From NCBI RefSeq assembly GCF_009659535.1, contig NZ_VJZZ01000001.1:759424-823423 (forward strand): a DNA stretch of 64,000 nt, read 5' to 3'. Within the stretch, counting starts at the first letter, position 1; each line of letters opens with the position of its first letter. Under the pieces are notes generated by a model, which worked only from the letters and a program-made list of their open reading frames with translations, ran no database searches and had not been told where the DNA came from. This stretch comes from Aggregicoccus sp. 17bor-14. Lineage in GTDB: Bacteria; Myxococcota; Myxococcia; Myxococcales; Myxococcaceae. Positions 19,876 to 34,941 of this stretch are shown here, piece by piece. The translations under genes and the position numbers were made by a program.

Positions 19876-21444
19876 TCAGGCAGCCGAGCGCTGTGGCTCC
19901 CCCTGTGCGGGTGGCTCGGGGGTGAGCCGCTGCAGGCGGGCGATGCCGTTGCGGTCCAGCACCAGGCGCACCAGCGAGAGGCTCACGCGCGGGGTGCCCG
20001 ACTCGCGCGGGCCGCTCACGGTGCAGCGCAGCACCAGGTCCACCTGGTAGCGCTTGGCGCCGCGCACGTGGCCCACGCTGAAGTCCTCCATGTCCACGTA
20101 CTCGAGCGCGTACTCGGGCTCGTCCATGTCGCGCAGGAAGCGCTCCACGCTCAGGCGGATGATGTCCGTGACGCCCGCGCGCCCGTGCAGCGTGCGGGGC
20201 AAGAGCTCCGCCTGCAGGACGATCTTCTTCGCGTAGCGGATGACGGTCTCGGTGAGCTCGCCCTGGGACACGGTGGCGAAGTCGTCGCGCCGGCGCAGCG
20301 CCTGCACGTCCGCGGGCACGCGCGCCGCGCGCCCGTAGTCCACGCGCTCCTCGCAGGTGCCCAGGTGGCGCTGGGTCACCGGGTCCACGATCTGCATCGT
20401 GCGATCGTAGAGGTGCGTGCGCGCGGCCTGGCTGAAGATGCGCCGCAGCCCCTCCTTGATGCGGTCCTTCATCATGTAGCCCACGACCACGATGAGGAAG
20501 AAGTTGAGGCTCACCTGGCTGAAGCGCGCCTGGGCCCAGAACGCCACCGCGGTGGCGAAGGTCATGGCGAGCCCCGCCGCGAAGGCGAAGAGCACCTCCT
20601 CCACGCCCTGGCGCTTCTGCTTCCTTCGCGCCGAGAGGAAGAGGATGTTCATGCAGAACTTCTTCAGGAACCCGAGGCGGTGCATGTACTCCTCGTTGTC
20701 CCCGCCCGGCACCAGCACGCTCTTGAGCCCGTGCTGCTTGCGGTACGCCTCCTCCTGGAGCACGTCCGCCATCAGCCCCTTGCGCGCGGCGAGGTAGCCG
20801 CCCGAGCGCGGCAGCCCCTCCATGTCCGCCACCGCGCGCCGGAAGCACTGCTCCACCGAGAGGCTGAGGTACTCGTCCACGAGCCGCAGGGAGGCGCGCG
20901 TCTTCTCCTGCAGCACGGGCGTCTGGGCGAGCCGCGCCCAGGTGCGGTAGCGCTCGAGCACCTGCGCCATGGCGGTGCGCGCGCCCTCCACCCGCGCCTC
21001 CAGCGCGCTCGCGTCCGGCACGGCGTTGGCCGCGCACCCCTGCTCCACGCCCTGCGCGAAGCGGCGCAGCGCGCCGCGCACCACGCAGGAGAGCAGCTTC
21101 GCGTGGTAGACGAGCTCGGGCTCGCCGCGCGCCGTCCCCACGCCCGGCGCGAGGCTCGCCTCCAGGTGCAGCAGCGGGCTCTGCGGCTCGCTCAAGAGCT
21201 CCTGCAGCGACATCACCGGGGTCTTGAAGCGTACGTAGTTGTGGATGCCCGCGTAGAAGTCCGCGCGCGGGTAGGTCTCCTCGTCCACGTTGAGGCTCGC
21301 GGGGAGGAAGAGGAAGGCCTCCACCAGGTAGCGCGCCGTGCCCTCGGCGCAGCTGGGCTCGTACTCGAGCTTGAGCTCCAGCTGCTTGCGGTCGTGGATG
21401 TCGAGCCGGTTGGAGAGCCGCGGAATGGAGGAGGACTGCGTCAC
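19876..21444 (-). CDS. Unknown membrane protein with two adjacent transmembrane helices
   Basis: 522 aa, no family recognised. The first 280 residues appear cytoplasmic: RLDIHDRKQLELKLEYEPSC at the start, an EAFLFLPASLNVDEETYPRA block, and helical segments rich in Arg/Glu. Two hydrophobic helices lie at about residues 283-304 and 309-326, separated by a very short turn. About 195 cytoplasmic residues follow, with VDPVTQRHLGTCEERVDYG and EYALEYVDMEDFSVGHVRGA. This hairpin-anchored layout puts both large domains on the same, probably inner, face. Codon use is typical of the window. Its role is not evident from neighbours (HAD hydrolase downstream, transporter upstream). Confidence 0.75.
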   Translation of the reverse strand: MTQSSSIPRLSNRLDIHDRKQLELKLEYEPSCAEGTARYLVEAFLFLPASLNVDEETYPRADFYAGIHNYVRFKTPVMSLQELLSEPQSPLLHLEASLAPGVGTARGEPELVYHAKLLSCVVRGALRRFAQGVEQGCAANAVPDASALEARVEGARTAMAQVLERYRTWARLAQTPVLQEKTRASLRLVDEYLSLSVEQCFRRAVADMEGLPRSGGYLAARKGLMADVLQEEAYRKQHGLKSVLVPGGDNEEYMHRLGFLKKFCMNILFLSARRKQKRQGVEEVLFAFAAGLAMTFATAVAFWAQARFSQVSLNFFLIVVVGYMMKDRIKEGLRRIFSQAARTHLYDRTMQIVDPVTQRHLGTCEERVDYGRAARVPADVQALRRRDDFATVSQGELTETVIRYAKKIVLQAELLPRTLHGRAGVTDIIRLSVERFLRDMDEPEYALEYVDMEDFSVGHVRGAKRYQVDLVLRCTVSGPRESGTPRVSLSLVRLVLDRNGIARLQRLTPEPPAQGEPQRSAA

Positions 21445-21505
21445 GAGCGTGAGCTTATGTCACGCGTGCGTGACGCGCATCCGGTCCGTGGGACCAGGGA
21501 GCGCC

Positions 21506-22912
21506 CTACCCGTCCGTGCCGGTGCCGCGGGGACTCGCGCCCGGGGTGGGCAGGGACACCGCCGCAGCCCCCCCGGCCGAAGACGGCGCCTGGTGCGAGC
21601 GGGGCCGCGCGTTCCACAGGGTGAGCATCAGCACGCCGCCGAGCACGGAGAAGCCGATCATGCTCGGGCCCCACACGCCCCAGCCGAACGCATCCAGCAG
21701 CGCGCCCATGCCGCTGCCCACCACCGCGCCGCCCACGTACTGCATGCCATCGAACATGCCGGCCGCGGTGGCGGCGGCCTTCTTGCCGCCGAAGTCCATG
21801 GACGCGGTCCCCGAGAGCATGGAGTGCACGATGCTGATCGCGAACGAGTTGAGCACGAAGGCGCAGATGACGAGCGTGAGGCTGGGGGCGCGCCAGACGA
21901 CGGCGAGGCAGAGCACCTGGAGCACGTAGCCGAGGAAGGCCACCGGGGGCCGGCGCGCCTTGAACAGCTTGTCCGAGAGGAAGCCCGCGGCGAAGGCGCC
22001 CAGGATGCCGGCGAGCACCACGCCGGTCGCCCCGTTCTTGAAGATGGCGCTGTCCAGCTTCAGGTGCTGCGCCTCCGTCATGTAGCGCGGGAACCACTGC
22101 TCGAAGCCGTGGCGCACCACGCCGGTGCAGAACTCGGCCGCGGCGATGGTGAGCGTCACCGGGTTGGTGAAGACCACGCGCGCCACGTACTTGAGGTCCA
22201 CCTTGCCGGTGTAGCCGCTCGAGGCGTCCGCCGTGTCCAGCGGGGGCAGCCCCGCCTCGTCCGGCGCGTCGCGCACGAAGAGGAAGGTGGCGCCGGCGAG
22301 CAGCGCCATGATCGCGGCGGGCACGAAGAACACCCACTGCCAGGGCAGCGCGAGCACCAGCAACGGCCCGATGAAGTACACGAGCGCGCGGCCGCTCTGG
22401 ATCATGGAGCCGAAGATGGCGCTGAACACGCCGCGCTCGGCCACGTGGAACCAGCCCGCGTTCACCTTGATGAGGGCGAGCGCCGAGTACGACTGGAAGT
22501 ACATGTTCAGGCCCCAGGCCGTGGCCAGGTAGCCGAGCAGCAGGGGCCCCGTGCCCAGGAAGCCGAGGTAGGCGCCCAGGCCGAACGCGATGTTGAACAC
22601 CACCGCGCCGCTCGCCCCGAGCAGCATCGCGCGCCGGCCGCCGATGCGGTCCGCCACCGGGCCGTTGAAGAGGGCCGAGAAGCCGTAGATCAACGTCGCC
22701 ACGCTGATGATGGTGCCGACCTGCGTCTTGCTCCAGCCGTAGGTCTCGCTCAGGCGCGCGTTGGCGAAGGAGAAGTTGTAGCGGCCCATGTACATGGCCG
22801 CGTAGGTGCACCCGAGCGTGAACCAGTTCTGGCCGCGGCGCATGCGGAAGGCGCGCGTGTGCTGGGGAGCAGGAGAGGACGAGGACGAGGCGCCGTGCAT
22901 GGGGGCCGGCAC
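21506..22912 (-). CDS. Major facilitator transporter, GlpT/UhpT-like organophosphate antiporter family
   Basis: 468 aa with about 12 hydrophobic helices and cytoplasmic ends. The conserved N-terminal pattern YAAMYMGRYNFSFANARLSE near residue 38 and the loop VADRIGGRRAM are typical of the OPA/GlpT branch. Other landmarks are NMYFQSYSALALIKVNAGWF and AERGVFSAIFGSM. Family members exchange glycerol-3-phosphate, hexose phosphates or phosphoenolpyruvate for phosphate across the inner membrane. The substrate cannot be assigned. The C-terminal 25 residues are disordered. Start ATG 22912, with another ATG four codons later. Confidence 0.82.
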   Translation of the reverse strand: MPAPMHGASSSSSPAPQHTRAFRMRRGQNWFTLGCTYAAMYMGRYNFSFANARLSETYGWSKTQVGTIISVATLIYGFSALFNGPVADRIGGRRAMLLGASGAVVFNIAFGLGAYLGFLGTGPLLLGYLATAWGLNMYFQSYSALALIKVNAGWFHVAERGVFSAIFGSMIQSGRALVYFIGPLLVLALPWQWVFFVPAAIMALLAGATFLFVRDAPDEAGLPPLDTADASSGYTGKVDLKYVARVVFTNPVTLTIAAAEFCTGVVRHGFEQWFPRYMTEAQHLKLDSAIFKNGATGVVLAGILGAFAAGFLSDKLFKARRPPVAFLGYVLQVLCLAVVWRAPSLTLVICAFVLNSFAISIVHSMLSGTASMDFGGKKAAATAAGMFDGMQYVGGAVVGSGMGALLDAFGWGVWGPSMIGFSVLGGVLMLTLWNARPRSHQAPSSAGGAAAVSLPTPGASPRGTGTDG

Positions 22913-22968
22913 TCTTTCCTACCGCCCCCCGGCCCGTCAACGCAGGGGTCCCGGCCGCCCGCCCGCCC

Positions 22969-23685
22969 CTACGGCGCGCGGGCCGCGGCCCCCTCGAGCG
23001 CGACCAGCCGGGTGAGGGCGAGCTCCGTCTTCGCGTCCGGCACCTCGCCCGCGCGGCACGCGGCGAGCAGCTCCGGCAGGGGCCGCCAGCGCAGCTCCCC
23101 GCCCTCCTCCAGCGGCGAGCCGTCCCCGGGCGGAGGCGCGCCCTCGAGCCCCGTCACGTCCACGGCCGCGAGGAAGATCTTCTCCGAGAGGATGCCCGGG
23201 GCGACGAAGAAGGGTGCGCCCAGCAGCTGCACCGCCTCGGGCGCGACGCGGTAGCCCCCCTCCTCCCACACCTCCGCCGCGGCGCGCGCGCGCACCCCGG
23301 CCTCGCCCCGGTCCTCGGGCTCGAGCAGCCCGGCCACGATCTCCTCCACCCGCAGGTAGGGCGCGGGGTCCGCGACGGCCGGCGTCTTGTCGCGCCGGAA
23401 GTAGGCCGCGGGGCGCAGGTTCATGCGCGTGAGCACCTCGCGCGCGCCGCCCGCGCCGCGCCGGTGCACCAGCACCGCCACCGCGTCCAGCCGCGGCCGG
23501 TCCACCACGTCCACCCGGTACACCTTCGAGTGCGTGCCGTCCGCGCGCACGTTGTGGCAGCGCAGCCGGCGCACCTGCAGGAAGCCCTCGTCGCAGCGCG
23601 CGCTCGCCGAGAAGTCCTCGATCACCTCGATTTCGACGACGGGCGAGGACACGGGTGAGGCCGTGGGGGGAAAGGTGGGAGTCAT
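22969..23685 (-). CDS. Nudix hydrolase-like protein with degenerate Nudix box
   Basis: 238 aa. Overall layout fits ADP-ribose/nucleoside-diphosphate-sugar pyrophosphatases: an N-terminal strand region (KVYRVDVVDRPRLDAVAVLV), then the Nudix helix AAEVWEEGGYRV at about residues 142-153. The glutamates of the box (EVWEE) are kept but the arginine before them is alanine and the upstream spacing is off by one, so catalytic activity should not be assumed. The ATG at 23685 is chosen because GGAG sits 6 bases before it; an in-frame ATG 12 bases upstream (23697) lacks such a site. It is divergent from the nucleotidase-like lipoprotein gene. Confidence 0.7.
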   Translation of the reverse strand: MTPTFPPTASPVSSPVVEIEVIEDFSASARCDEGFLQVRRLRCHNVRADGTHSKVYRVDVVDRPRLDAVAVLVHRRGAGGAREVLTRMNLRPAAYFRRDKTPAVADPAPYLRVEEIVAGLLEPEDRGEAGVRARAAAEVWEEGGYRVAPEAVQLLGAPFFVAPGILSEKIFLAAVDVTGLEGAPPPGDGSPLEEGGELRWRPLPELLAACRAGEVPDAKTELALTRLVALEGAAARAP

Positions 23686-23726
23686 GGTGCGCTCCATAGT
23701 CCAGGCGGGCGTGCTCGGCCCGTTGC

Positions 23727-23755
23727 TTGAACGGCGCTAGCGAATCCCGTACCTT
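23727..23755 (+). promoter_or_regulatory. Candidate promoter of the envelope operon
   Basis: TTGAAC (23727-23732), a 17-base spacer and TACCTT (23750-23755), about 50 bases before the ATG at 23806. Moderate resemblance to sigma-70 consensus only. Confidence 0.35.
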
Positions 23756-23805
23756 GCGCCGCCCTGTAATTGTCAGTTCACACCACTCCCCGGACAATCT
23801 CCTCG

Positions 23806-26223
23806 ATGCGTCGCGCCCTCGCTGGCCTCGTCGGCCTCCTTTGCGCCCTCGGCAGTGCCTCGTGCATGCCGGTCCTGGACGGACAGGATACGAACCTTGC
23901 CGGCCAGGACGTGCGGCTGACCCTGCTCCACACGTCGGACATCCACTCGCGCCTGATCCCGTACGACTTCGCTCCGCTGAAGACGGACACGGACCTGGGC
24001 ATCATCCCCGAGGCGGGCCCCTTCGGCGGCGCCACGCGCATCGCCGCGCTGCTCAAGCGCGAGCGCGCGAAGAGCAGCCGCGTGCTGCACCTGGACTCCG
24101 GTGACTGCTTCCAGGGCGCGCCCATCTTCAACCTGAACTCGGGCGAGGCGGAGTTCCGCTTCCTCTCCCAGGTGGGCCTCAACAGCGCGGTCGTGGGCAA
24201 CCACGAGTTCGACGCCGGCGCCCTCAACTTCTCCAACAAGGCGCGCGACTTCGCGACCTTCCCCCTGCTCGCGGCGAACTACCAGTGGGAGGACCCGCGC
24301 GAGCCCGGCAGCAACCAGACCGCCTACCGCACCGAGCCCTACACCATCCACAACGTGCAGGGCCTGAAGGTGGCCGTCATCGGCATGGCCAACATCAGCT
24401 CGCTCAACTCGCTGGTGGAGGGCGGCAACAGCATGCAGGCCACCCCGCTCGAGCAGAACGAGATCGCGCGCGCCTACGTGGACCTGCTGCGCCCGGTGGT
24501 GGACCTGGTGGTGATCGTGAGCCACCTGGGCCTCACCGAGGACCAGGATCTCATCCAGGGCTACACCGCCTACTACGAGTGGAGCCGCGCCAAGGAGTTC
24601 GTGCAGCGCAAGAACCAGCCCTGGACGGTGCTCGAGCGCACCGGCGACGAGAGCGACCCCAAGAGCGTGGTGAAGGTGCGCATCCCGGGCGTGGTGGGCA
24701 TCGACGTGGTGCTGGGCGGCCACCTGCACGTGGTGCTCAACCCGCCGCAGACGGTGACGGACCCCTCGGGCCGCAAGGTGGTGCTCAGCCACTCCGGCGC
24801 GTTCGCCAAGTACGTGGGCCGCCTGGACCTGATGGTGCACGTGCCCTCCGCGGAGGAGGTGGCGGCCAACGGCAACCTCAACGGCGCCGAGGTCGTGAGC
24901 CACGACTACAGGGTGCTGCCGGTGGACGGGCTCTGGTGCGACGACGCCATGCGCAAGTACTACCAGGACGTGGCGCGCTTCTGGGCCCCCGGTGAGTTCC
25001 TCGCCAACGCGGACGTGCGCCGCGCCATGGCGGCCTGCGGCAACCAGGAGGACCGCCTCACCACCGAGCTGCTGCAGCCCTACATCCTCGGCATGGACTA
25101 CGGCCTGCAGCTCACCAGCATCTTCGCCTACGCGCCCAAGGACGTGACCCGCCGCAACAACAACGCGGGCGGCGACTCGCCGCTGGGCAACCTCACCGCG
25201 GACTCGATGCGCAAGCGGCGCAACGTGGACGTGGAGATGGCGCTGACCAACACCCTGGGCATCCGCGACAACCTCTACGCGGGCGTGATCACCCAGGAGT
25301 CCATGTTCAACGTGTTCCCCTTCGAGAACACCATCAACCGCATGTACCTCTCCGGCACCGAGGTGCAGGAGATGCTGGACTTCGTCGCCGAGCGCTCCGC
25401 CTCGCGCGGCTGCGCGGCCCAGGCGCAGATCTCCGGCGCGCGCTTCACCATGGACTGCGTGCAGGTGCAGCTCAACGACCTGCGCTTCCCCTGTGACCCG
25501 CAGCAGGGCGGCGCGAACATGTGCCCGGGCACGGCCGCCGAGCGCGAGGGGCACAACCCCTGGCAGTGCCTCGAGAGCGACCTCAACGGCTACCGCTGCT
25601 ACGCGAACCCCGCCTACGACATCTCCATCAACGGCAAGGCGCTGGACAAGCACACCACCTACGCGGTCGCGGTGAACGACTACATCGCCAAGGGCGGCTC
25701 GGGCTTCAACGTGCTCAAGCGCAACACCACGCGCTTCGAGACCGGCATCAGCCTGCGCGACTCGCTCATCGGCTACATGCAGGGCCTGTGCAGCTGCGAC
25801 GAGATCCTCGCCGGCGCGACGACCTCGAAGACGGGCGAGTACTGCGGCGTGCTCACCAACGGCCACTACGAGGTGGACACCGCCACCATCGGCGCGTGCC
25901 AGACCGCCAAGGCCTTCAAGGACGCGCTGTCCAAGAAGGTGGGCAGCTGCACCTGCGGGCAGCTGCTGCAGAAGGGCTTCGACCCCACGGGCTGCAACGC
26001 CGAGGGCGTGGCGACCGCGGCGGACGCGCAGGCCCAGTGCGACGTGCCTGCCGGCCCCTACACGGGCCGCTGCAGCTGCAAGGAGGCGCTCACCGCCGGT
26101 GAGGGCACCGAGTCCGCGTGCGGCTTCATCACGCCGCAGCTCAAGCAGTTCTGCCAGAACCCGACCTCGGTGGCCGTGGCCCCGGTGGTCGAGGACGGCC
26201 GCATCGGCCGGAGGGTGAAGTAG
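23806..26223 (+). CDS. 5'-nucleotidase/UshA-like metallophosphoesterase lipoprotein
   Basis: 805 aa. The signal peptide ends in SASC (Cys 20), an acceptable lipobox, so the protein is probably lipid-anchored. A calcineurin-like metallophosphoesterase domain carries the dimetal ligands in LLHTSDIHSR (41-50), LDSGDCFQGAP, VGNHEFDAG (130-138) and LGGHLHVV (303-310). The 5'-nucleotidase C-terminal domain follows (RRNNNAGGDSPLGNLTADSM, VFPFENTINRMYLSG). The last 150 residues are unusual: three cysteine-rich units of the form CSCDEIL, CTCGQLL and CSCKEAL. The family releases phosphate from nucleotides or UDP-sugars outside the cell. The next gene's ATG directly follows the stop codon, so the two are coupled. 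Confidence 0.85.
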   Translation: MRRALAGLVGLLCALGSASCMPVLDGQDTNLAGQDVRLTLLHTSDIHSRLIPYDFAPLKTDTDLGIIPEAGPFGGATRIAALLKRERAKSSRVLHLDSGDCFQGAPIFNLNSGEAEFRFLSQVGLNSAVVGNHEFDAGALNFSNKARDFATFPLLAANYQWEDPREPGSNQTAYRTEPYTIHNVQGLKVAVIGMANISSLNSLVEGGNSMQATPLEQNEIARAYVDLLRPVVDLVVIVSHLGLTEDQDLIQGYTAYYEWSRAKEFVQRKNQPWTVLERTGDESDPKSVVKVRIPGVVGIDVVLGGHLHVVLNPPQTVTDPSGRKVVLSHSGAFAKYVGRLDLMVHVPSAEEVAANGNLNGAEVVSHDYRVLPVDGLWCDDAMRKYYQDVARFWAPGEFLANADVRRAMAACGNQEDRLTTELLQPYILGMDYGLQLTSIFAYAPKDVTRRNNNAGGDSPLGNLTADSMRKRRNVDVEMALTNTLGIRDNLYAGVITQESMFNVFPFENTINRMYLSGTEVQEMLDFVAERSASRGCAAQAQISGARFTMDCVQVQLNDLRFPCDPQQGGANMCPGTAAEREGHNPWQCLESDLNGYRCYANPAYDISINGKALDKHTTYAVAVNDYIAKGGSGFNVLKRNTTRFETGISLRDSLIGYMQGLCSCDEILAGATTSKTGEYCGVLTNGHYEVDTATIGACQTAKAFKDALSKKVGSCTCGQLLQKGFDPTGCNAEGVATAADAQAQCDVPAGPYTGRCSCKEALTAGEGTESACGFITPQLKQFCQNPTSVAVAPVVEDGRIGRRVK

Positions 26224-28263
26224 ATGAAGCGCCTGACCTTTGCCGCGGCGGCCCTGCTGCTCGCCGCTCCCGCCTGCTACACCAAGACCCCGGACGCCGC
26301 CGCCGCCGGCGTCAGCTCGTTCCGCGTGGAGATCAAGGGCCTGTACCCCGCCTCCGCAGCCGCGGCGGCGGACGGCACGCGCGCCCCGCTGCCCGTGGAG
26401 GTCACCTGCGCGGCGCAGTACGGGAACGACCAGACCCAGGTGCCCGCGGACAAGCGCGGCACCGAGGGCTGCCGCTACGTCATCCCGCACGGCTCGGTGG
26501 ACGTGGCGCTGGCCATCACCGCGCTGGACGCGGACGGCCAGCGCTTCACCGGCTTCAGCGGCCCGGTCGCCTTCCGCGTGGTGCCCGGTGACCTCACGGA
26601 CGCGAACACCACCCGCTGGGCGCAGGTGACCGAGGGCCTCGCCACCGGCACCGTGCGCGTCTCGCACGTCTACGGCGAGGTGCGGATCTGGGTGGAGGAC
26701 GCCCCCATCGCGGTGGACTACGTGGACGGCGGCGTGCGCCTGGACATGGACGGCGGCGTGGAGGTGGCGGGCCAGCTGCCTCCGGAGAGCAACGTCGCGC
26801 ACACCTACGTGAGCGGCGTCTCGCCCGCGGTGCTCTTCGACGAGCCCAGCCTCGCGGCGGTGCAGCAGCCGGACGGCTTCGACAACAAGTCCTCTCCCTT
26901 CGTGGGGCAGTTCGTCAAGATCGGCCGCGCGCCCGAGGCCGGTGCGCCGCTCCTGCACCACTGCCTGCCGGGTGACCCCAACGACGGCCAGCCCATGACC
27001 CTGGTGGTCACCGGCACGGACCCCTCCGGCTTCTACGTGACGGACGTCACCTCCTGCCGCATCCCGGAGGTGCGCTCGGGCAGCAGCATCATGCTCGAGC
27101 CCTCGGGCTTCTTCCCGGGCACCTACGGCGCGATGTTCGTCTACAACTACAACTACCCCGAGGGCCTGGACCGCGGCGACCTGCTGTGGACGCTCTCCGG
27201 CTCGGTGGCGGAGTTCTCCGGCGCCACCCAGATGTCCTTCCCGGCCTGGACCGTGCGCGACCACGTGCGCCAGACGGAGAAGGACCCGTCCAAGTGGGAG
27301 AAGTACATCCCGGCCCCGGTGGAGCTGAACCTGCGCACCTGCGCGGTCTCCAACGTGTTCGCGCCCTTCGTCACCGACGAGCTGTGCGGCTACAGCAACG
27401 CGAACGTGAAGATCGAGAGCCTCGAGTCCGCGCTGGTGCAGCTCAAGGGCGTGAAGCTGCCCGAGGTGATGGTCAGCTGCGACAAGAACGGCGACGGCCA
27501 GGTGCCCTTCTTCTGCCAGACGAAGGACGCGAACGGGCAGTGGCTGTGGGGCGAGTGCCCCGGCGGCGCGCTCAGCGCCAACGACACCGCCGAGCGCACC
27601 TGCAACGCGGACTGCACCAGCGGCCACGGCCAGTTCGAGGGCAAGGTGTGCGCCGAGAAGACCACCTACAACAGCTTCGGCCAGTTCGTGGTGGAGATGG
27701 CGGGCCCGGGCCCGGCCGCCGCCCACCTGGACGACAGCGTGCCGGCGCGCCTGCCGAGCACCGCCGTGACGGCGGGCACCCCCGCGCGCACCACCACCTT
27801 CTGGCCCGCGGGCAGCCAGCTGCGCGTGTGGTGCAACGTGCCGGTGCACGTGGCCTTCGGCCAGAGCGCGGTGACGGCCACCGTGGACGACGCGCTGCTC
27901 GAGGCGAACACCCGCCTGGAGCACCTGGTGGACAGCAGCGGCGGCTACGTGTCCTTCCTCGCGGACGGCACCACCGCTGCCGACAGCGCGTGCTGGGTGG
28001 GCGCCAACTCCCACACCCGCATCAGCGTGCTCACCCGCGACGCGGCGCCGGAGCTCAAGCCGGACTGCGACGACAGCGGCAGCACGGCCGAGGCCGCCAA
28101 CTGCCGCGCCCTGCGCGCCGCCACCTACGACATCACGGGCCACCTGAAGCAGATCCAGGCGGGCCGGCCCCGGTGGCTGGTCACCCCGCGCGACGTGGAC
28201 GACATCTGCTGCTACCCGGGCAAGGGGCTCAGCTGCCCCAAGTCCATCAAGGCCTGTCCGTAG
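26224..28263 (+). CDS. Large lipoprotein of unknown function
   Basis: 679 aa. A signal peptide ends LLLAAPAC (Cys 18), a good lipobox. No family is recognised. The N-terminal part contains beta-sandwich-like stretches (SSFRVEIKGLYPAS, ALDADGQRFTGFSGPVAFRV, VRIWVEDAPIAVDYVDGGV). A calcium-loop-like DKNGDGQVPF and a cysteine cluster (FFCQTKDANGQWLWGECPGG, then TCNADCTSGHG) lie near residue 420-480. The end holds more cysteines (DVDDICCYPGKGLSCPKS). The ATG touches the stop of the nucleotidase-like gene, with GGAGG about 9 bases upstream, so they are probably made together and may work on the same surface substrate. Confidence 0.72.
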   Translation: MKRLTFAAAALLLAAPACYTKTPDAAAAGVSSFRVEIKGLYPASAAAAADGTRAPLPVEVTCAAQYGNDQTQVPADKRGTEGCRYVIPHGSVDVALAITALDADGQRFTGFSGPVAFRVVPGDLTDANTTRWAQVTEGLATGTVRVSHVYGEVRIWVEDAPIAVDYVDGGVRLDMDGGVEVAGQLPPESNVAHTYVSGVSPAVLFDEPSLAAVQQPDGFDNKSSPFVGQFVKIGRAPEAGAPLLHHCLPGDPNDGQPMTLVVTGTDPSGFYVTDVTSCRIPEVRSGSSIMLEPSGFFPGTYGAMFVYNYNYPEGLDRGDLLWTLSGSVAEFSGATQMSFPAWTVRDHVRQTEKDPSKWEKYIPAPVELNLRTCAVSNVFAPFVTDELCGYSNANVKIESLESALVQLKGVKLPEVMVSCDKNGDGQVPFFCQTKDANGQWLWGECPGGALSANDTAERTCNADCTSGHGQFEGKVCAEKTTYNSFGQFVVEMAGPGPAAAHLDDSVPARLPSTAVTAGTPARTTTFWPAGSQLRVWCNVPVHVAFGQSAVTATVDDALLEANTRLEHLVDSSGGYVSFLADGTTAADSACWVGANSHTRISVLTRDAAPELKPDCDDSGSTAEAANCRALRAATYDITGHLKQIQAGRPRWLVTPRDVDDICCYPGKGLSCPKSIKACP

Positions 28264-28295
28264 CCTTCACCCCACAACGCTGAACGTCACACCAG

Positions 28296-28321
28296 GCGCC
28301 CTGCCCTCGCGGGCAGGGCGC
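28296..28321. other. Intergenic 11-bp hairpin between lipoprotein and barrel genes
   Basis: Perfect stem GCGCCCTGCCC/GGGCAGGGCGC with loop TCGC in the 114-base gap before the barrel gene. There is no T-tract, so it could be an attenuating, processing or mRNA-stabilising element rather than a full terminator. Confidence 0.5.
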
Positions 28322-28377
28322 AGGAGGGCGCAGCCCGCCCCCAAAAGCGGCTGCGTCTGAGGAGAGGGAGTAACAAC

Positions 28378-29883
28378 ATGCTGCGCCGTATGGCCCTGAC
28401 CGGGCTCCTGTTCGCTTCCGCGCCCGCGTGGGCCGGCGACTTCGTGGACACCCGTCTGTCCTTCGTCTTCGCCGACGACAACATCCTCAAGGGCGCGGGC
28501 GAGACCTCGCCCAACAGCCCCAGCGCGCGCTTCGGAGCGGGCCGGCAGAACACCCAGTTCTACGACAACTTCAACACCAAGTTCTCCGGCTTCGAGACGC
28601 TGTCGAACCTGGTGCTCTACAAGAAGATGCCGGCCTTCTTCACGGGGCTCACCACCGAGGCGGCCTTCACGGTGCTCGTGCTCGAGCAGCCGTCCGGCGG
28701 CATCACGCTGCGCGACAACTCCAGCTACATCCGGCTCAACTACACGCCGCCGGGCTGGGGCGAGCGGGAGGGCATCTCGCTCACCGGCTTCCCGGTGGAC
28801 GCGGACCGCATGCGCCTGGGCTTCGCCTACCGCATCAGCTGGGGCGGCTCGGGCATCTTCGCGAGCCGCGCCTTCAGCAACGGCGTGCCGGGCGCGAAGC
28901 TGCAGCTCACGCGCGACCGCTGGTACGCCTTCGTGGGCGCCAAGACGGGCGTGGTGCAGAACGACATCATCCGCGAGCAGGAGACCGTGTACGGGGCGCT
29001 CGCGGGCGCGGGCGTGGACCTGACGGAGAACCTGCGCCTGGAGGCCAACGGCGGCTTCTTCCAGAAGGGGCTCATCCCGGCGCTCGCCACCCTGGGCATC
29101 GAGGCGCCGGTGAACTCCGCGGGCGTGAGCGCGCAGGCCGTGTACCACGTGGGCGTGCCCGTGGGCACCAGCGTGGACCTGCGCCTGTACCGCAACGACC
29201 CGGACGTGTATCAGCGCTTCTTCACCCCCGTGCAGTACCCGGGCGGCCTGAGCTACTCGGTGAGCGCGGAGGCCAGCTACCTCACCCAGACGCTCTCGGA
29301 CCCGGACGAGTTCGGCACCACCGTGCCCCAGGGCGCGCGCGCCGCGGCGCTGCAGGCGAGCATGAAGTACGACTTCCTGCGCGTGCACCTGCTCGGCCTC
29401 GCGCGCGACATCTCGTTCATCCAGTTCGAGGTGCCCGGCTTCCCGCCCTTCACCGACTTCCCGGACGGCACGAAGCTCAAGCCGGAGATGTTCGTGGCCG
29501 GCGGCGCCGACTACCACTTCCCCTCCATCCACTTCACGCCCGGCTTCATCCTCGGCGTGCAGCAGCCGGCGAGCGCGCGCACCACGCAGGGCCTGGGCGG
29601 CAACAACCCGCCCCCGGGCCTCACTGGCGGCCGCACCGTCGTCTTCCGTGACGTGAACCAGGTCACGGTGCTGCCCGAGGGCGAGGACGCGCAGCCCATC
29701 TTCAGCGCGAAGACCACCTTCCGCTGGGACATCTCGGAGAGCGTCGCCGCGGTGGGCGAGGTCTATTACACCTACGACACCAACCGCGTGACCTTCCGCG
29801 ACGACCTCACCGGCGTGGCGCAGCCCAGCTTCGTGGATCCCCACGGCGTGGGCTTCAACACCATGCTGCAGGCGCGCTTCTAA
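28378..29883 (+). CDS. Outer-membrane beta-barrel protein of unknown function
   Basis: 501 aa. Signal peptide at residues 1-19 (cut after AWA). The mature sequence alternates short amphipathic strands with Gly/Asn/Asp turns (LRLEANGGFFQKG, GVSAQAVYHVGVPVGTSVDL, SYSVSAEASYLTQTL, SVAAVGEVYYTYDTNRVTF) and ends in Phe (MLQARF), the usual terminal signal for barrel assembly. No Cys in the mature part. It follows two lipoprotein genes on the same strand after a hairpin-containing gap. A pore for products of the nucleotidase-like enzyme is one idea, but there is no direct evidence. AGGAGAGGGAG precedes the ATG. Confidence 0.75.
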   Translation: MLRRMALTGLLFASAPAWAGDFVDTRLSFVFADDNILKGAGETSPNSPSARFGAGRQNTQFYDNFNTKFSGFETLSNLVLYKKMPAFFTGLTTEAAFTVLVLEQPSGGITLRDNSSYIRLNYTPPGWGEREGISLTGFPVDADRMRLGFAYRISWGGSGIFASRAFSNGVPGAKLQLTRDRWYAFVGAKTGVVQNDIIREQETVYGALAGAGVDLTENLRLEANGGFFQKGLIPALATLGIEAPVNSAGVSAQAVYHVGVPVGTSVDLRLYRNDPDVYQRFFTPVQYPGGLSYSVSAEASYLTQTLSDPDEFGTTVPQGARAAALQASMKYDFLRVHLLGLARDISFIQFEVPGFPPFTDFPDGTKLKPEMFVAGGADYHFPSIHFTPGFILGVQQPASARTTQGLGGNNPPPGLTGGRTVVFRDVNQVTVLPEGEDAQPIFSAKTTFRWDISESVAAVGEVYYTYDTNRVTFRDDLTGVAQPSFVDPHGVGFNTMLQARF

Positions 29884-29913
29884 CGGCGCGCGTCCCGGCC
29901 TCCGCTCGCAGCG

Positions 29914-31746
29914 TCAGTGGGCGGAGGTCATCCGCACCACCTCCTCGAAGGAGGTGGTGCCCTGGGCCAGCTTGCGCACCGCGCTCTCGCGCAGGGTGCG
30001 CATGCCGGCCCTCCTCGCGGCCTGCAGCAGCTCGGGCTGCGGGGCGCCGTGCGCGATGAGCTCCTTGAGCTCTCCCGCGGTGCCCACGATCTCGAAGGCG
30101 CCCGTGCGGCCGTAGAAGCCGGTGCCGCGGCAGCGCACGCAGCCACCCCCGCGCAGGAGCCGCACGCCTCCGGGGAGCAGCGGCAGCGGGGCCTGCAGCG
30201 CGGTGAGCTCGTCCGGGGTGAGCACCGTCTCCTGGGCGCAGTGCGCGCAGACGCGGCGCAGCAGGCGCTGCGCCATCACGCCGAGCAGCGCCGAGGCGAG
30301 CAGGAAGGGCGGGATCCCGAGGTCGCGCATGCGGCTCACCGCGCCGAGCGCGTCGTTGGTGTGCAGCGTGCTGAGCACCAGGTGGCCGGTGAGGGCCGCC
30401 TGGATGGCGTTCTCGGCGGTCTCCGCGTCGCGGATCTCACCGACCATGATCACGTCCGGGTCCTGGCGCAGGATGTGGCGCAGCGCGCCCGCGAAGTCGA
30501 GCCCCACCTTGGGCTGCACCTGCACCTGGTTGAACGCGTCCCACACCATCTCGATGGGATCCTCGATGGTGGTGACGTTCACGTCCGTGCCCGCGAGCGC
30601 CTTGAGCGCCGAGTACAGCGTGGTGGTCTTCCCGCTGCCCGTGGGACCGGTCACCAGCACCAGCCCGTGCGGCTGATCGATCCACGACTCGAACAGCCCC
30701 TTCTCGTCCGGCTCGAAGCCCAGCTCCGCGATGTCCTGCACCAGTGTCTCGGGGTCGAAGATGCGCACCACCACCTTCTCGCCGAAGGCGGTGGGCAGCG
30801 TGCTCACGCGCAGCTCGATCTCGCGCCCCTCGCGCTCCGTCTTGATGCGCCCGTCCTGCGGCTTGCGCCGCTCGGAGATGTCCATGCGCGCGAGCATCTT
30901 CACGCGGCTGACCACCGGCGCGTGCACGCCCTGCGGCAGCGTGTACGCGGGGTGCAGCACGCCGTCGATGCGCAGGCGCACCAGGCTCGCCTCGCGCTTG
31001 GGCTCGATGTGGATGTCGGACGCGCGGTTGTCGTAGGCGTAGCGCAGCAGGTAGTCCACCGCCTGCACGATGGGGCGGTCGCTCGCCTCGAGCTCCTGGT
31101 TGCCGCTGAGCGACACCAGCTGCTCGAAGTTCGCGATCTGCGGCGCCACACCGAAGTCCGTGGCCGCCTGCGCCAAGGTGCGCTTGAAGCCGTAGATCTC
31201 CGCGATGAGCTTGAGGATGTCCCCCTTCGCCGAGAGCACCGGGGTGATGGGCACGCCCGCCAGCTGCTGCAGGTTCGCGAAGAGCTCCCCGTCGAAGGGG
31301 TTGGCCACCGCCACCACCAGCCGGCCTCCCTCCCCGCGCTCGAGCGGGAGCAGCACGTGCTTCTGCGCGAAGGGGCGCGACACCGTGCGTGTCGACAGCT
31401 GCATGTCCACCTTGAGCGGGTCGATCTTCCGGTAGGCGATCCCTGCGGCCCGCGCCGCCGCCTCCGTCACCCGGTCCTCGTCCAGCACGCCGCGCCCGTC
31501 GGGCAGCGCCACCTGGAACGCCGCGACGATCTCCACCGGGCTGACCTCGTAGCGCGCCGCCTCCTTGCCCGTGGCCCCCTTCGCCTTCAGCACCCGCGCG
31601 CGCGCCGCCGTCTCCCGCGAGAGCACGTCCTGCGCCTGCGCGGGCTGCAGCAGCCCCTGCCCCACCAGCGCCTCGAGCACGAACAGCGTGGAGAAGTCAC
31701 CCCGCGAGCGCGCGAGGGGCGCAGGGGTGGGCTGGGGCTGGGCCAA
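29914..31746 (-). CDS. Type IV pilus/type II secretion-type ATPase (PilB/GspE family)
   Basis: 610 aa hexameric motor ATPase. The N-terminal MshE/GspE-N-like domain spans about residues 20-190. The ATPase core follows: SDIHIEPKREASLVRLRIDG, Walker A VTGPTGSGKTTTLYSAL, Asp box TIEDPIE, Walker B-like DPDVIMVGEIRD and His box LTGHLVLSTLHTND. The four-cysteine zinc site is CAHC...CVRC near residues 505 and 540. Family members power pilus extension or pseudopilus assembly. No pilin, platform or secretin gene is adjacent, so its machine is elsewhere. The ATG is at 31746. Confidence 0.88.
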   Translation of the reverse strand: MAQPQPTPAPLARSRGDFSTLFVLEALVGQGLLQPAQAQDVLSRETAARARVLKAKGATGKEAARYEVSPVEIVAAFQVALPDGRGVLDEDRVTEAAARAAGIAYRKIDPLKVDMQLSTRTVSRPFAQKHVLLPLERGEGGRLVVAVANPFDGELFANLQQLAGVPITPVLSAKGDILKLIAEIYGFKRTLAQAATDFGVAPQIANFEQLVSLSGNQELEASDRPIVQAVDYLLRYAYDNRASDIHIEPKREASLVRLRIDGVLHPAYTLPQGVHAPVVSRVKMLARMDISERRKPQDGRIKTEREGREIELRVSTLPTAFGEKVVVRIFDPETLVQDIAELGFEPDEKGLFESWIDQPHGLVLVTGPTGSGKTTTLYSALKALAGTDVNVTTIEDPIEMVWDAFNQVQVQPKVGLDFAGALRHILRQDPDVIMVGEIRDAETAENAIQAALTGHLVLSTLHTNDALGAVSRMRDLGIPPFLLASALLGVMAQRLLRRVCAHCAQETVLTPDELTALQAPLPLLPGGVRLLRGGGCVRCRGTGFYGRTGAFEIVGTAGELKELIAHGAPQPELLQAARRAGMRTLRESAVRKLAQGTTSFEEVVRMTSAH

Positions 31747-31875
31747 GGCAGAGACCTCCGGAAGGGCGGGCAGGGGCGCAGTATGCGCCAGGAGCGCGGC
31801 GGCGCCCCTTTCCTTGCGCCCCTGTGAACCCGGGGCTCCGGGGCGGCAATCCCTGCCCCTGGAGCGCGGGCGGCC

Positions 31876-32640
31876 TCAGGGCTGCTGCAGGGCCTGCACT
31901 GCCGCTTCCACCAGTGCCTCGGGCGTGGGGCGCTCGGCCACGGCGGCCGCCGGCAGCTCCAGGCGCGCGAGCGCCGCCGCCGTGGTGGGGCCGATCGCCA
32001 CGCGGCGCATCCCCGCCATCCGCGCCCGGCCCGCCGCCTCCGCGAAGGCCTCCGCGGTGCGCGGGCTCGCGAACAACCCCACCTCGGGCGGGGTGGCGTC
32101 CAGCTGCGCGAGCGACTCGGGGGCGAGCCCCGCTGCCTCGGCGCGGTACGCCGTCACCCGCGCCACGCGCACGCCGTGCTCGAGCAGGGCCTCCTCCAGC
32201 TCGCGCCGGCCGTGCTCGGCCGCGGGCAGGAGCACCTCGTCGCCGGCCTCCAGCCGATCCTTGAGGCACTCGAACAGCGCCTCGCCGGTGCCCGCCTCGG
32301 GCTGCGCCGCCACGTTCCAGCCGTGGCCCTCCACCGCGCGCGCGGTCGCCGGGCCCACCGCCGCGAGGCTCACCCGCGCGATGCGCTCCAGGGTGCCCGC
32401 CTCGCGCAGCGCCTCCGCGAAGGCGTCCACCGCGGAGGGGCTCGCGAACACCACCCAGCGGTAGCGGTGCACGCCGTCCGCCGCGGCCGCGAGCGGGCGC
32501 GGATCGTCCGGGGGCTTGAGCTCGAGCAGGGGCAGCGAGATCACCTCGGCGCCCTCGTCCTCGAGCAGGAAGCAGAGCGCCTCCACGCGCTCCTTGGGGC
32601 GCGTCACCAGGACGCGGATGCCTTCGAGTCGCCTCTGCAC
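31876..32640 (-). CDS. hemD: Uroporphyrinogen-III synthase
   Basis: 254 aa enzyme that closes and inverts hydroxymethylbilane to uroporphyrinogen III. The family is poorly conserved; the call rests on the typical N terminus RVLVTRPKERVEALCFLLE, the repeated two-domain layout (VVFASPSAVDAFAEAL and VGLFASPRTAEAFAEA), the IGPTTAAAL motif and its position right after hemC. The GTG at 32640 is chosen since it precedes the first conserved strand; an in-frame GTG lies 9 bases upstream. It is the last gene of the heme operon. Confidence 0.85.
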   Translation of the reverse strand: MQRRLEGIRVLVTRPKERVEALCFLLEDEGAEVISLPLLELKPPDDPRPLAAAADGVHRYRWVVFASPSAVDAFAEALREAGTLERIARVSLAAVGPATARAVEGHGWNVAAQPEAGTGEALFECLKDRLEAGDEVLLPAAEHGRRELEEALLEHGVRVARVTAYRAEAAGLAPESLAQLDATPPEVGLFASPRTAEAFAEAAGRARMAGMRRVAIGPTTAAALARLELPAAAVAERPTPEALVEAAVQALQQP

Positions 32641-32650
32641 GGGGCGCACT

Positions 32651-33592
32651 CTAGGTCCGCGAGGGCGCGTGCGCGCGGCCAAAATCGCGCAGGATCTCCC
32701 CCGCGCCGCGGCCGAGCAGCTCCTCCGCCAGCGCCTCGCCCAGGGCGGCCGCCTCGGACGCGGGGCCCCGGCGCTCGCCGCGCACCACGCGGCTGCCGTC
32801 CGGCCGGCCCACCAGGCCGCGCAGGTGCACCTCACCGGCCTCCACCGTGGCGTAGCCCGCGAGCGGCACCGTGCAGCCGCCCTCGAGCCGCGCGAGCAGC
32901 GCGCGCTCGGCGCTCACGGCCGTGCGGGTGACGGGGTCCTCCAGGGGCGCGAGCAGCGCGCGCACCCGCGCGTCCGCCTCGCGGCACTCGATGGCCAGCA
33001 CCCCCTGCCCCACCGCGGGCAGGCTGCGCTCGGCGGAGAGCACCTCGGTGATCTCCGCCTCGAGGCCCAGGCGCTTGAGCCCCGCGTGCGCGAGCACCGC
33101 GCCGGCGAGCCCCAGCTCCCGCGTGCGCGCGAGCCGCGTCTGCACGTTGCCGCGCAGGGAGACGATCTCCAGGTCCGGCCGCCACGAGCGCAAGAGGCAG
33201 CTGCGGCGCAGGGAGCTGGTCCCCACGCGCGCCCCGTGCGGCAGCGCCTCGAGCCGCAGGCCCGCCGGGCTGCAGAAGGCATCGCGCGGGTCCTCGCGCC
33301 GGGGCACTGCGGCGAGCATCAGCCCCGCGGGCAGCACCGAGGTCATGTCCTTGAGGCTGTGCACCGCGAGGTCCGCGCGATTCTCGATCAGCGCCTGCTC
33401 GATCTCCTTCACGAACAGCCCCTTGCCGCCCACGGCGGACAGGGGCGCGGAGAGGAAGCGGTCTCCCTCGGTGCTCATCTCCACCAGGCTCACGTCCAGC
33501 CCCGGGTGGGCCGCCTGCAGCAGCGCGCCCACGTGGCGGGCCTGCCACAGGGCCAGCGGGCTCTTGCGGGTGGCGATTCTCACGGCGTTCAT
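32651..33592 (-). CDS. hemC: Hydroxymethylbilane synthase (porphobilinogen deaminase)
   Basis: 313 aa. It joins four porphobilinogen units using a dipyrromethane cofactor bound to a cysteine, here in [13 protein letters not shown]. Other signatures are [16 protein letters not shown] at the start, [12 protein letters not shown], and the substrate-binding arginines in [18 protein letters not shown] followed by [10 protein letters not shown]. The ATG overlaps the hemA stop (ATGA) and the gene ends 11 bases before the hemD start, so hemA-hemC-hemD are a coupled set. Confidence 0.95.
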
Positions 33593-34941
33593 CCCTTGGC
33601 ACTCCTCGCGTCGCTGTTGGCGGCCTCCGCCCTGCCCTCTTCCCTCGCCTCGGCGCGCACCGCCTCCTGCGCCTCCGCCAGCCCGAACAGCTCCGCGGCG
33701 GCCCCGGCGAGCCGGTGCCCATCCGGGTGGCTGTCCGGGTCCAGGTGCACGGCGCGCAGCTTCGCGGTGGGGCCGTGCAAGAGCTTGTTCACGATGGCGC
33801 GGCCCATGGCCTCGATGCTCTTGCGCTGGCGCTCGGTGAGCCCGTCGCCCATCGCGGCCAGCGTGCGCTCCACCTCGGCGCGCGCGATCTCCTCGGCGCT
33901 CTTGCGCAGGCGCGCGAGCACCGGCAGCCCCTCGCGAAGGCTGCGCTCCTTCACGAAGCGCGCGACCTCCTGGGCCACGAGCACGCTCGCCTTCTCCGCC
34001 TCGCCCGCGCGCGCCGCCGCGTTGTCCGCGACGAACTTCTGGATGTCGTCCACGTCGTAGGCCGTCACCCAGGGCAGCTCGCCCACGTCCGGCGCGATGT
34101 CGCGCGGCACCGCGAGGTCCACCATGAAGAGCGGGCGCAGCTTGCGCGCCTTGCCCACCGCGCCGACGTTCTCCTTCGTGAAGATCGGCACGGGGCTCGC
34201 GGTGGAGCAGACGACGACGTCGCTCGCGGTGAGCAGCTGCTGCAGCTCCTCGAAGGGGCGCGCCTCGCAGCCCGCGCCCACCTCGCGCGCGAGCGCCTCG
34301 GCGCGCGCGAGGGTGCGGTTGGTGATGACCAGCCGGCTCGCCCCCGCGGCCCGCAGGTGGCGCGCCGCGTGCTCGCCCATCTCGCCCGCGCCCACCACCA
34401 GCACCGTCTTGCCGTGCAGCCCGTCGAACACCTTGCTTGCCAGCGCCACCGCCGCGCTCGCCATGCTCGTGGCCGAGCGGCCGATGGCCGTCTCCGTGCG
34501 CACCCGCTTCGCGCAGCCGAAGGCCGCGGCGCACACCCGGGTGAGCTCGCCGCGCACGGCGCCTGCGCCCTGCGCCCGCTCGAAGGCCTCCTTCACCTGG
34601 CCGAGGATCTGCGCCTCGCCCAGCACCATCGAGTCCAGGCTCGAGGCCACGCGGAAAAGGTGCACCAGCGCCGCCTCGCCGCGGTGCTCGTAGAGGTGGT
34701 CCAGCGCCTCGGGGCCGCCGAGCAGGCTCAGCTGCGCGCGCGCCTGCTCGCGCGCCGCGTCCCCGTCCTGCGCCGCCACGTACAGCTCCACCCGGTTGCA
34801 GGTGGACACCACCAGCGCCTCGGAGGGCGCCTGCGCGAGCCGCTGGGTGAGCTCCACCTGGCGCGGCTCCGGCAAGGCGAGCCGCTCGCGCACCGCGAGG
34901 GGCGCGCTACGGTGGGAGAGGCCGATGCAGAGCAGTTCCAT
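33589..34941 (-). CDS. hemA: Glutamyl-tRNA reductase
   Basis: 450 aa. It reduces glutamyl-tRNA-Glu to glutamate-1-semialdehyde, the first committed heme step in bacteria using the C5 pathway. The catalytic domain has [15 protein letters not shown] and the nucleophile cysteine in [13 protein letters not shown] (about residue 49). [13 protein letters not shown], the NADPH-binding [17 protein letters not shown] and the C-terminal dimerisation helices are all present. The C-terminal 40 residues are less conserved. The gene is 21 bases after the CcsA/HemX-like gene on the same strand. Confidence 0.96.

Follow-up and report, generated by a model that had tools for sequence, protein, structure and literature searches.

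A conserved three-gene unit of Myxococcota that joins a 5'-nucleotidase-like lipoprotein, an OB-type lipoprotein and a porin-like barrel

What do three adjacent genes for a nucleotidase-like lipoprotein, a lipoprotein without an assigned family and an outer-membrane barrel do together in a myxobacterium? We addressed this question for a stretch of 64,000 nucleotides from Aggregicoccus sp. 17bor-14 (contig NZ_VJZZ01000001.1, positions 759,424 to 823,423 of the forward strand), hereafter the window, in which we call the three genes nuc, lip and omp. An earlier note, made from the sequence alone, had read them as the surface enzyme, companion and pore of a nutrient-scavenging or surface-processing system. 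The open reading frames (ORFs) sit where that note had placed them, with nuc and lip abutting (spacing 0) and the barrel following 114 bp downstream of lip, and lipoboxes were read by eye in nuc (GSASC, Cys20) and lip (AAPAC, Cys18). The features of the locus are as follows.

23806-29883, + strand: the trio nuc-lip-omp
23806..26223, + strand: nuc, UshA-like 5'-nucleotidase lipoprotein, 805 aa, lipobox Cys20; ATG at 23806, stop at 26221-26223
23920..24732, + strand: metallophosphoesterase domain of nuc, residues 39-309 (Pfam PF00149)
25147..25722, + strand: C-terminal substrate-binding domain of nuc, residues 448-639 (Pfam PF02872)
25789..26154, + strand: Cys-rich tail of nuc, residues 662-783, three C-x-C-x3-L units, 12 Cys
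26194..26205, + strand: C-terminal DGRI motif of nuc, residues 797-800
26224..28263, + strand: lip, predicted OB-fold lipoprotein, 679 aa, lipobox Cys18; its ATG starts at the base after the nuc stop
26305..26844, + strand: predicted Ig-like domain of lip, residues 28-207 (AlphaFold model and VIA-align)
26848..27495, + strand: predicted ExeM/NucH-type OB unit of lip, residues 209-424 (hhalign, lip-free profile, OB fold of RPA)
27748..28008, + strand: predicted inserted jelly-roll-like domain of lip, residues 509-595 (alignment, AlphaFold model and VIA-align)
28296..28359, + strand: two GC-rich hairpins in the lip-omp gap
28378..29883, + strand: omp, outer-membrane barrel, 501 aa, predicted porin-like (OccK/OprD, LamB and AlgE folds)

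The three genes belong together in relatives: within the order, one and the same set of 95 genomes out of 145 carries all of them. Order-wide searches found lip in 93 genomes and omp in 95, and in the two genomes with omp and no initial lip match (G037 and G038) a shorter lip was recovered by the family profile at 4.5e-53 and 1.1e-58. Searches with nuc matched 134 of the 145 genomes owing to paralogues, and matches with E < 1e-60 were confined to the 95 trio genomes and one incomplete genome (G124), in which a partial nuc alone was found. Twelve genomes of the window's own family contained neither lip nor omp, and matches to the lip profile (A1) in G123 and G009, both of the order, were weak (E about 1e-4) and were not scored as lip. 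All 73 loci with a complete set of three ORFs, which encode 65 distinct lip proteins, had them on one strand in the order nuc-lip-omp. Fifteen more loci showed two of the three, some of them short fetches or contig ends, with true gaps at L060, L097, L099, L100, L102 and L103.

The arrangement extends over the phylum, where lip was found in 122 of 195 genomes. Outside the order 25 genomes were lip-positive, and 20 of these served as an outgroup, in which lip followed nuc on the same strand in every case (20/20) and omp came next after lip in 15, one of them about 1.1 kb on. Because the layout recurs over both order and phylum it is far above chance, and because lip follows nuc throughout the outgroup and omp is less constant, nuc and lip are the core of the unit and omp is its usual third member. 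The check proposed in the earlier note, co-occurrence across Myxococcota, thus finds enzyme, companion and pore kept together and excludes a lack of conservation in relatives; the three genes very probably form a functional unit.

Expression signals are compatible with this arrangement. The lip-omp gap contains neither a T-run terminator nor a sigma-70-like promoter match, and nuc, lip and omp are likely carried on one transcript. The two hairpins in the gap recur in 22 chosen Myxococcaceae-type sequences, with changes on both sides in 6 of 12 predicted pairs and a weak covariation term (-0.28). The alignment omitted L069, which looked different, and L036; hairpins were weak or unseen in L069, L070 and L078, the last two having short stems only. 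These hairpins may stabilise or tune omp expression, and Rfam gave no match across window positions 20000-34000.

The first gene, nuc, probably encodes an active phosphoesterase for nucleotide-like substrates. Two domains scored over their Pfam cut-offs, Metallophos (PF00149; 1.2e-6, 29.5 versus 21.5 bits) and 5_nucleotid_C (PF02872; 1.9e-28, 100 versus 23.6 bits), and the closest solved relatives are 5'-nucleotidases (2z1a, E 2.6e-35). Across 61 aligned rows, which represent 60 distinct genes since nuc of the window entered twice, D45, H47, D100, N132, H133, H240, H306 and H308 were retained in 60 or 61, the single miss being a gap, and in the substrate domain N482, R487, F506 and GGxG[FY] were retained in all 61. 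We take these positions, by comparison with the family and its motifs, to be the metal ligands, the Asp-His dyad and the NxxGxR and GGxG[FY] elements. With both domains, the dimetal ligands, the dyad and the substrate motifs present, nuc has the make-up of type-I secreted 5'-nucleotidases (UshA/CD73 superfamily). Assignment to the SoxB, NadN or cyclic-nucleotide phosphodiesterase families was rejected on NCBIfam scores far under the cut-offs; as activities, all three are still conceivable.

Beyond these domains nuc has a Cys-rich tail with C-x-C-x3-L units at residues 662, 715 and 756, in which we read, from the Cys positions, repeats some 40-50 residues long that hold four Cys each. The cysteines could form disulfides. 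Their number varies, with 16 in the tails of five Myxococcus and one Pyxidicoccus sequence and at most 8 in 25 of 29 rows from other families. That such a tail is foreign to ordinary UshA-like proteins, as had been claimed, was borne out here: the C-x-C-x3-L unit is absent from all six paralogous nucleotidases searched (the two that the window's genome has, and four out of five from G103). The protein ends in DGRI in 47 of 61 rows and in a looser pattern in 59, and the motif is common over the phylum. DGRI itself was found in none of the six paralogues, yet two of them end in related strings (one EGRI, one RGRI), which weakens the idea of a docking tag specific to the unit and leads us to suggest that it may be an ordinary terminus of the superfamily.

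The companion lipoprotein had been described as having no recognised family, which is accurate for curated libraries (no match above cut-off in Pfam, NCBIfam or PDB sequences) and no longer so for profile comparison, which reveals an OB unit. The 21-member lip alignment (A1) displays a pattern familiar from nuclease OB units, and hhalign matched residues 209-424 to a combined OB profile with a probability of 97.7 (E 1.8e-12) and to a profile of ExeM/NucH units only with 91.3; the omp and nuc alignments, used as controls, gave 0.1. The combined hidden Markov model (HMM) was built from OB units of upstream proteins, described below, and of five ExeM/NucH nucleases over the family cut-off, with no lip included. 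With this model an outgroup lip scored 3.8e-15 in a match that spans almost all of the unit, and no sequence in a set of 264 shuffles came under E 1. Among 88 lip ORFs, matches with E < 1e-3 numbered 0 with the ExeM/NucH-only HMM, 4 with the upstream units only and 12 with both combined, in a set in which some ORFs are copies of one gene: the 89 ORFs present before the removal of one comprised 80 distinct sequences.

Structure prediction agrees with this assignment. The AlphaFold model of lip (mean predicted local distance difference test, pLDDT, 84.8) gave VIA-align matches to single domains (Z about 6-9), of which only the Ig-like and OB assignments were used, as support. Residues 28-207 appear Ig-like (Z about 7, a middling value), and the OB region matched an RPA subunit (3kdf; Z 6.4, 87 residues, rank 45), which is insufficient alone. 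Foldseek with the whole model returned weak or single-domain matches only, and the jelly-roll-like domain at 509-595 is gapped or nearly gapped in the 10 rows of the lip alignment (A1) that come from other families. No match to the endonuclease/exonuclease/phosphatase domain (PF03372) or to NF033681 was found in lip, and we rejected a degenerate nuclease on the lack of a nuclease domain match. Of the marks of ExeM/NucH membership, profile-profile comparison thus recovers the OB unit and neither the nuclease domain nor the family score is present. As predicted, then, lip is an Ig-like domain joined to an ExeM/NucH-type OB unit minus the nuclease. Its OB ancestry is highly likely, and binding of nucleic acid or nucleotides is conceivable at slightly less than even chances. 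In known nucleases the unit matters for function: deletion of the OB region of ExeM nearly abolishes nuclease activity (PMC6085458), and the OB domain of Xds is required for activity (PMC6746945).

OB units also occur next to the trio in other families. Half of the 20 outgroup loci (10) have, upstream of nuc and in its orientation, a gene whose product contains two or three OB units and a lipobox-like string.

OB-repeat lipoproteins upstream of nuc in other families, same strand as nuc: L089 1-2793; L090 9254-11938; L091 1138-3588; L096 4668-7133; L101 8504-10012; L106 1261-3171

Among five of these proteins that were scanned, three had matches to TSP3 and lamin-tail (LTD) domains, and none had a nuclease domain. 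The Pfam OB nucleic-acid-binding model matched one of the five at 1.1e-4, and the NCBIfam ExeM/NucH model matched the OB parts of two upstream proteins at 2.8e-20 and 1.1e-11, all below cut-off. In closer genera lip has the lowest identity of the trio (about 50%, versus about 70% for nuc and 75% for omp). Separately, lip ORFs are far longer in some genera of the family (L071 5831-9787 and L072 6282-11258), where large insertions are possible.

The third gene, omp, is by its predicted model (mean pLDDT 78.7, predicted template modelling score 0.80) a porin-like barrel, a shared fold that does not give the substrate. Among the 50 VIA-align matches listed, the nearest porins were OccK/OprD, LamB and AlgE (Z 16.3-19.3 over 270-349 residues, 6-13% identity). 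No Pfam match to the OprD/Occ, LamB or AlgE families was obtained, and the only Pfam match was a borderline one to the Phage_OMP barrel (PF24653, 27.1 versus 27). TonB-dependent transporters of the SusC type have a plug domain and a 22-strand barrel; the VIA-align matches listed for omp were all porins or porin-like, an absence from a list that excludes nothing, and Foldseek listed one TonB-type transporter (4aiq). Orphan omp paralogues with about 40% identity were rejected as a functional clue, as they stand without nuc or lip at the two loci read (L074 7223-8668 and L075 7275-8711).

Myxococcus xanthus offers a presumed counterpart, mapped by position, minus-strand order and protein type, not by sequence. 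In G103, a genome from the same family assembled in one contig, there are secretin genes at 2.918 and 3.654 Mb. If these correspond to MXAN_2514 and MXAN_3106, which are secretins in the tables of PMC3222651, interpolation puts nuc (3.104 Mb) at gene 2664 and a second nucleotidase (2.872 Mb) at 2477, versus MXAN_2470 in that paper. On this basis omp, lip and nuc are presumably MXAN_2659, 2660 and 2661. No literature anchor was found for MXAN_2655-2658 and 2662-2663. For the outer-membrane fraction, PMC3222651 records 17 peptides of MXAN2659, classed as a beta-barrel and flagged as a protein that Kahnt et al. had detected too, and 6 peptides of the lipoprotein MXAN2660. MXAN_2661 is among 44 hydrolytic-enzyme genes up-regulated in predation and is one of five in vesicles (PMC9548883). 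In the 12 listed passages of PMC5857379 matched by word stems, nothing bore on the trio locus. The earlier suggestion of nutrient scavenging from prey therefore fits in its prey link, if the positional mapping is right. As to the substrate, the OB unit of extracellular nucleases in lip makes us favour nucleotides or nucleic acids over phosphate at large.

Taken together, the gene unit, its conservation, the retained catalytic residues, the OB ancestry of lip and the porin-like model of omp lead us to propose, with about even confidence, an outer-membrane module for the processing and uptake of nucleotides or nucleic acids. From them we infer the substrate, the OB ligand, a physical complex, the direction of transport and the membrane face. 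Nucleic acids would be cut upstream by separate secreted nucleases, and nuc, a lipid-anchored type-I metallophosphoesterase, would dephosphorylate nucleotides or close derivatives at the cell or vesicle surface. Anchored beside it, lip would use its OB unit either to hold oligonucleotides or nucleotides or to dock nuc, and omp would be a substrate-specific porin admitting nucleoside, phosphate or both.

Several observations weigh against this proposal. The outgroup loci were selected by their lip match, and omp is non-adjacent in 5 of 20 of them and in G040. In eight genomes checked because lip and omp were apart, omp had been missed or the genome was a close relative of such a case (G167 and G193), omp lay on another contig in six, and in the other two (G165 and G166) it was not found. 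The score of nuc is far under the cut-off of the UshA equivalog (NCBIfam NF007109), at 140.7 versus 600 bits. The window's own lip reaches only E 0.003 with the lip-free OB HMM, the ExeM/NucH-only HMM retrieves no lip below the threshold given above, and the limits of the OB unit were set from an iterated profile that had absorbed lip, whose very low E-values for lip we discarded as evidence. Proteins and sugars, too, are ligands of OB folds. No ExeM/NucH nuclease match was obtained in the window's genome, so the nuclease step would fall to other enzymes. Finally, MXAN_2661 is missing from the outer-membrane lipoprotein table of PMC3222651, in which two other nucleotidases appear, and a text search for MXAN 2659-2661 in the main text of another vesicle study (PMC4158809) found none of them named.

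Genes on the opposite strand flank the trio, with a Nudix-like and an MFS gene on one side and a T2SSE-type ATPase gene on the other; the MFS and Nudix-like genes, divergent from nuc, recur beside the trio within the family and were left outside the unit as defined.

22969..23697, - strand: neighbour gene with a Nudix-like box (our own reading), divergent from nuc; no Pfam or NCBIfam match
21506..22912, - strand: MFS transporter of the organophosphate antiporter type (PgtP/GlpT-like); NCBIfam matches all below curated cut-offs

In an upstream alignment of 13 sequences no conserved Pho-box-like repeat was seen by eye before nuc, and phosphate control through such a repeat was set aside; a conserved block of another kind is present. 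In the divergent intergenic region (window 23721-23760), the stretches GTTGCTTG and ATCCCGTACCTTGCGCC are conserved in relatives and form a possible promoter or operator. A sigma-70-like match at 23770-23798 was rejected as the nuc promoter, being too near the ATG and not conserved in the aligned relatives.

Other functions can be drawn from the same genes. General scavenging of organic phosphate, with nuc as a broad phosphoesterase, omp as a phosphate-passing porin, lip as a scaffold and the whole under phosphate control, is unlikely: UshA-type enzymes do release phosphate, and within the family an MFS gene of the organophosphate-antiporter type is a recurring neighbour of the trio, but this gene lies on the opposite strand here, none of the 20 outgroup loci gave a match to it at E <= 1e-10, no Pho-box-like repeat was seen upstream by eye, and the nuclease-type OB unit would be left unexplained. 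We think it quite unlikely that the trio trims nucleotides or extracellular DNA in the matrix or in vesicles for signalling instead of feeding. Vesicle localization of the presumed orthologue MXAN_2661 would suit such a role, as would the OB proteins, some with LTD and TSP3 domains, that adjoin the trio in outgroups, whereas a porin within the unit suggests uptake and MXAN_2661 is up in predation (PMC9548883).

The remaining alternatives concern the parts. Loss of nucleic-acid binding by the OB unit would leave lip as a structural adaptor that links nuc to the porin with the help of its Ig-like and jelly-roll domains; its low conservation, its additional domains and insertions and the frequency of protein binding among OB folds all favour this option, which we still hold to be improbable, and the like OB-repeat lipoproteins upstream of nuc at half of the outgroup loci are left unexplained by it. 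Very unlikely, in our view, is that the barrel is a mere neighbour with its own expression and nuc-lip the functional pair. The gap with its two recurrent hairpins, the genomes with omp elsewhere or not found and the unequal peptide counts of the presumed M. xanthus omp and lip (17 versus 6; PMC3222651) speak for separation, but omp and lip are in the same 95 genomes, strand and order are constant in 73 of 73 loci, and the gap lacks a promoter or T-run terminator match.

The proposed processing and uptake module resembles several known systems in part. Like UshA/CD73-type 5'-nucleotidases, nuc has PF00149, PF02872 and the checked metal and dyad residues; it differs in its lipid anchor, Cys-rich repeat tail, partner genes and a score that falls well short of the UshA equivalog cut-off. 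The ExeM/NucH/Xds extracellular nucleases (NF033681) have an OB unit related to that of lip, but lip is without an endonuclease/exonuclease/phosphatase match and below the family score. In Bacillus subtilis, YhcR is a single wall-anchored protein that unites OB, nuclease and nucleotidase domains; compared by description only, it shares surface OB and 5'-nucleotidase modules with the trio, which splits them over two lipoproteins, has no nuclease domain and adds a porin. The ExeM paper cites this protein for an OB-like region under the name YcgR (PMC6085458). With OccK/OprD, LamB and AlgE porins omp shares a predicted barrel fold (Z 16-19), at the low identities given above for the matches listed and without a Pfam match to them. 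Sus-type (SusC/SusD) glycan uptake loci comprise a surface enzyme, a binding lipoprotein and an outer-membrane pore. The trio shares this logic, but nuc and lip belong to other families by the matches found and omp models as a 501-aa porin. No description of the three-gene unit was found in searches of open-access papers; the types of part are known, and their combination and spread are apparently new.

Nucleic acids are a large share of prey biomass, and to our knowledge their uptake by myxobacteria has not been worked out. More tentatively, and at clearly less than even odds, we suggest that much of Myxococcota may carry a previously undescribed surface machine in which OB lipoproteins capture oligonucleotides, a tethered nucleotidase strips phosphate and a dedicated porin imports the products, and with which predatory members would eat the DNA and RNA of prey from cells and vesicles; it would be a nucleic-acid counterpart of the Sus-type glycan loci. 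With presumed M. xanthus orthologues in outer membranes and vesicles, one of them up in predation, the idea is open to a direct genetic test in a model organism, and a lipoprotein left blank by the curated libraries searched gains a family and a likely ligand.

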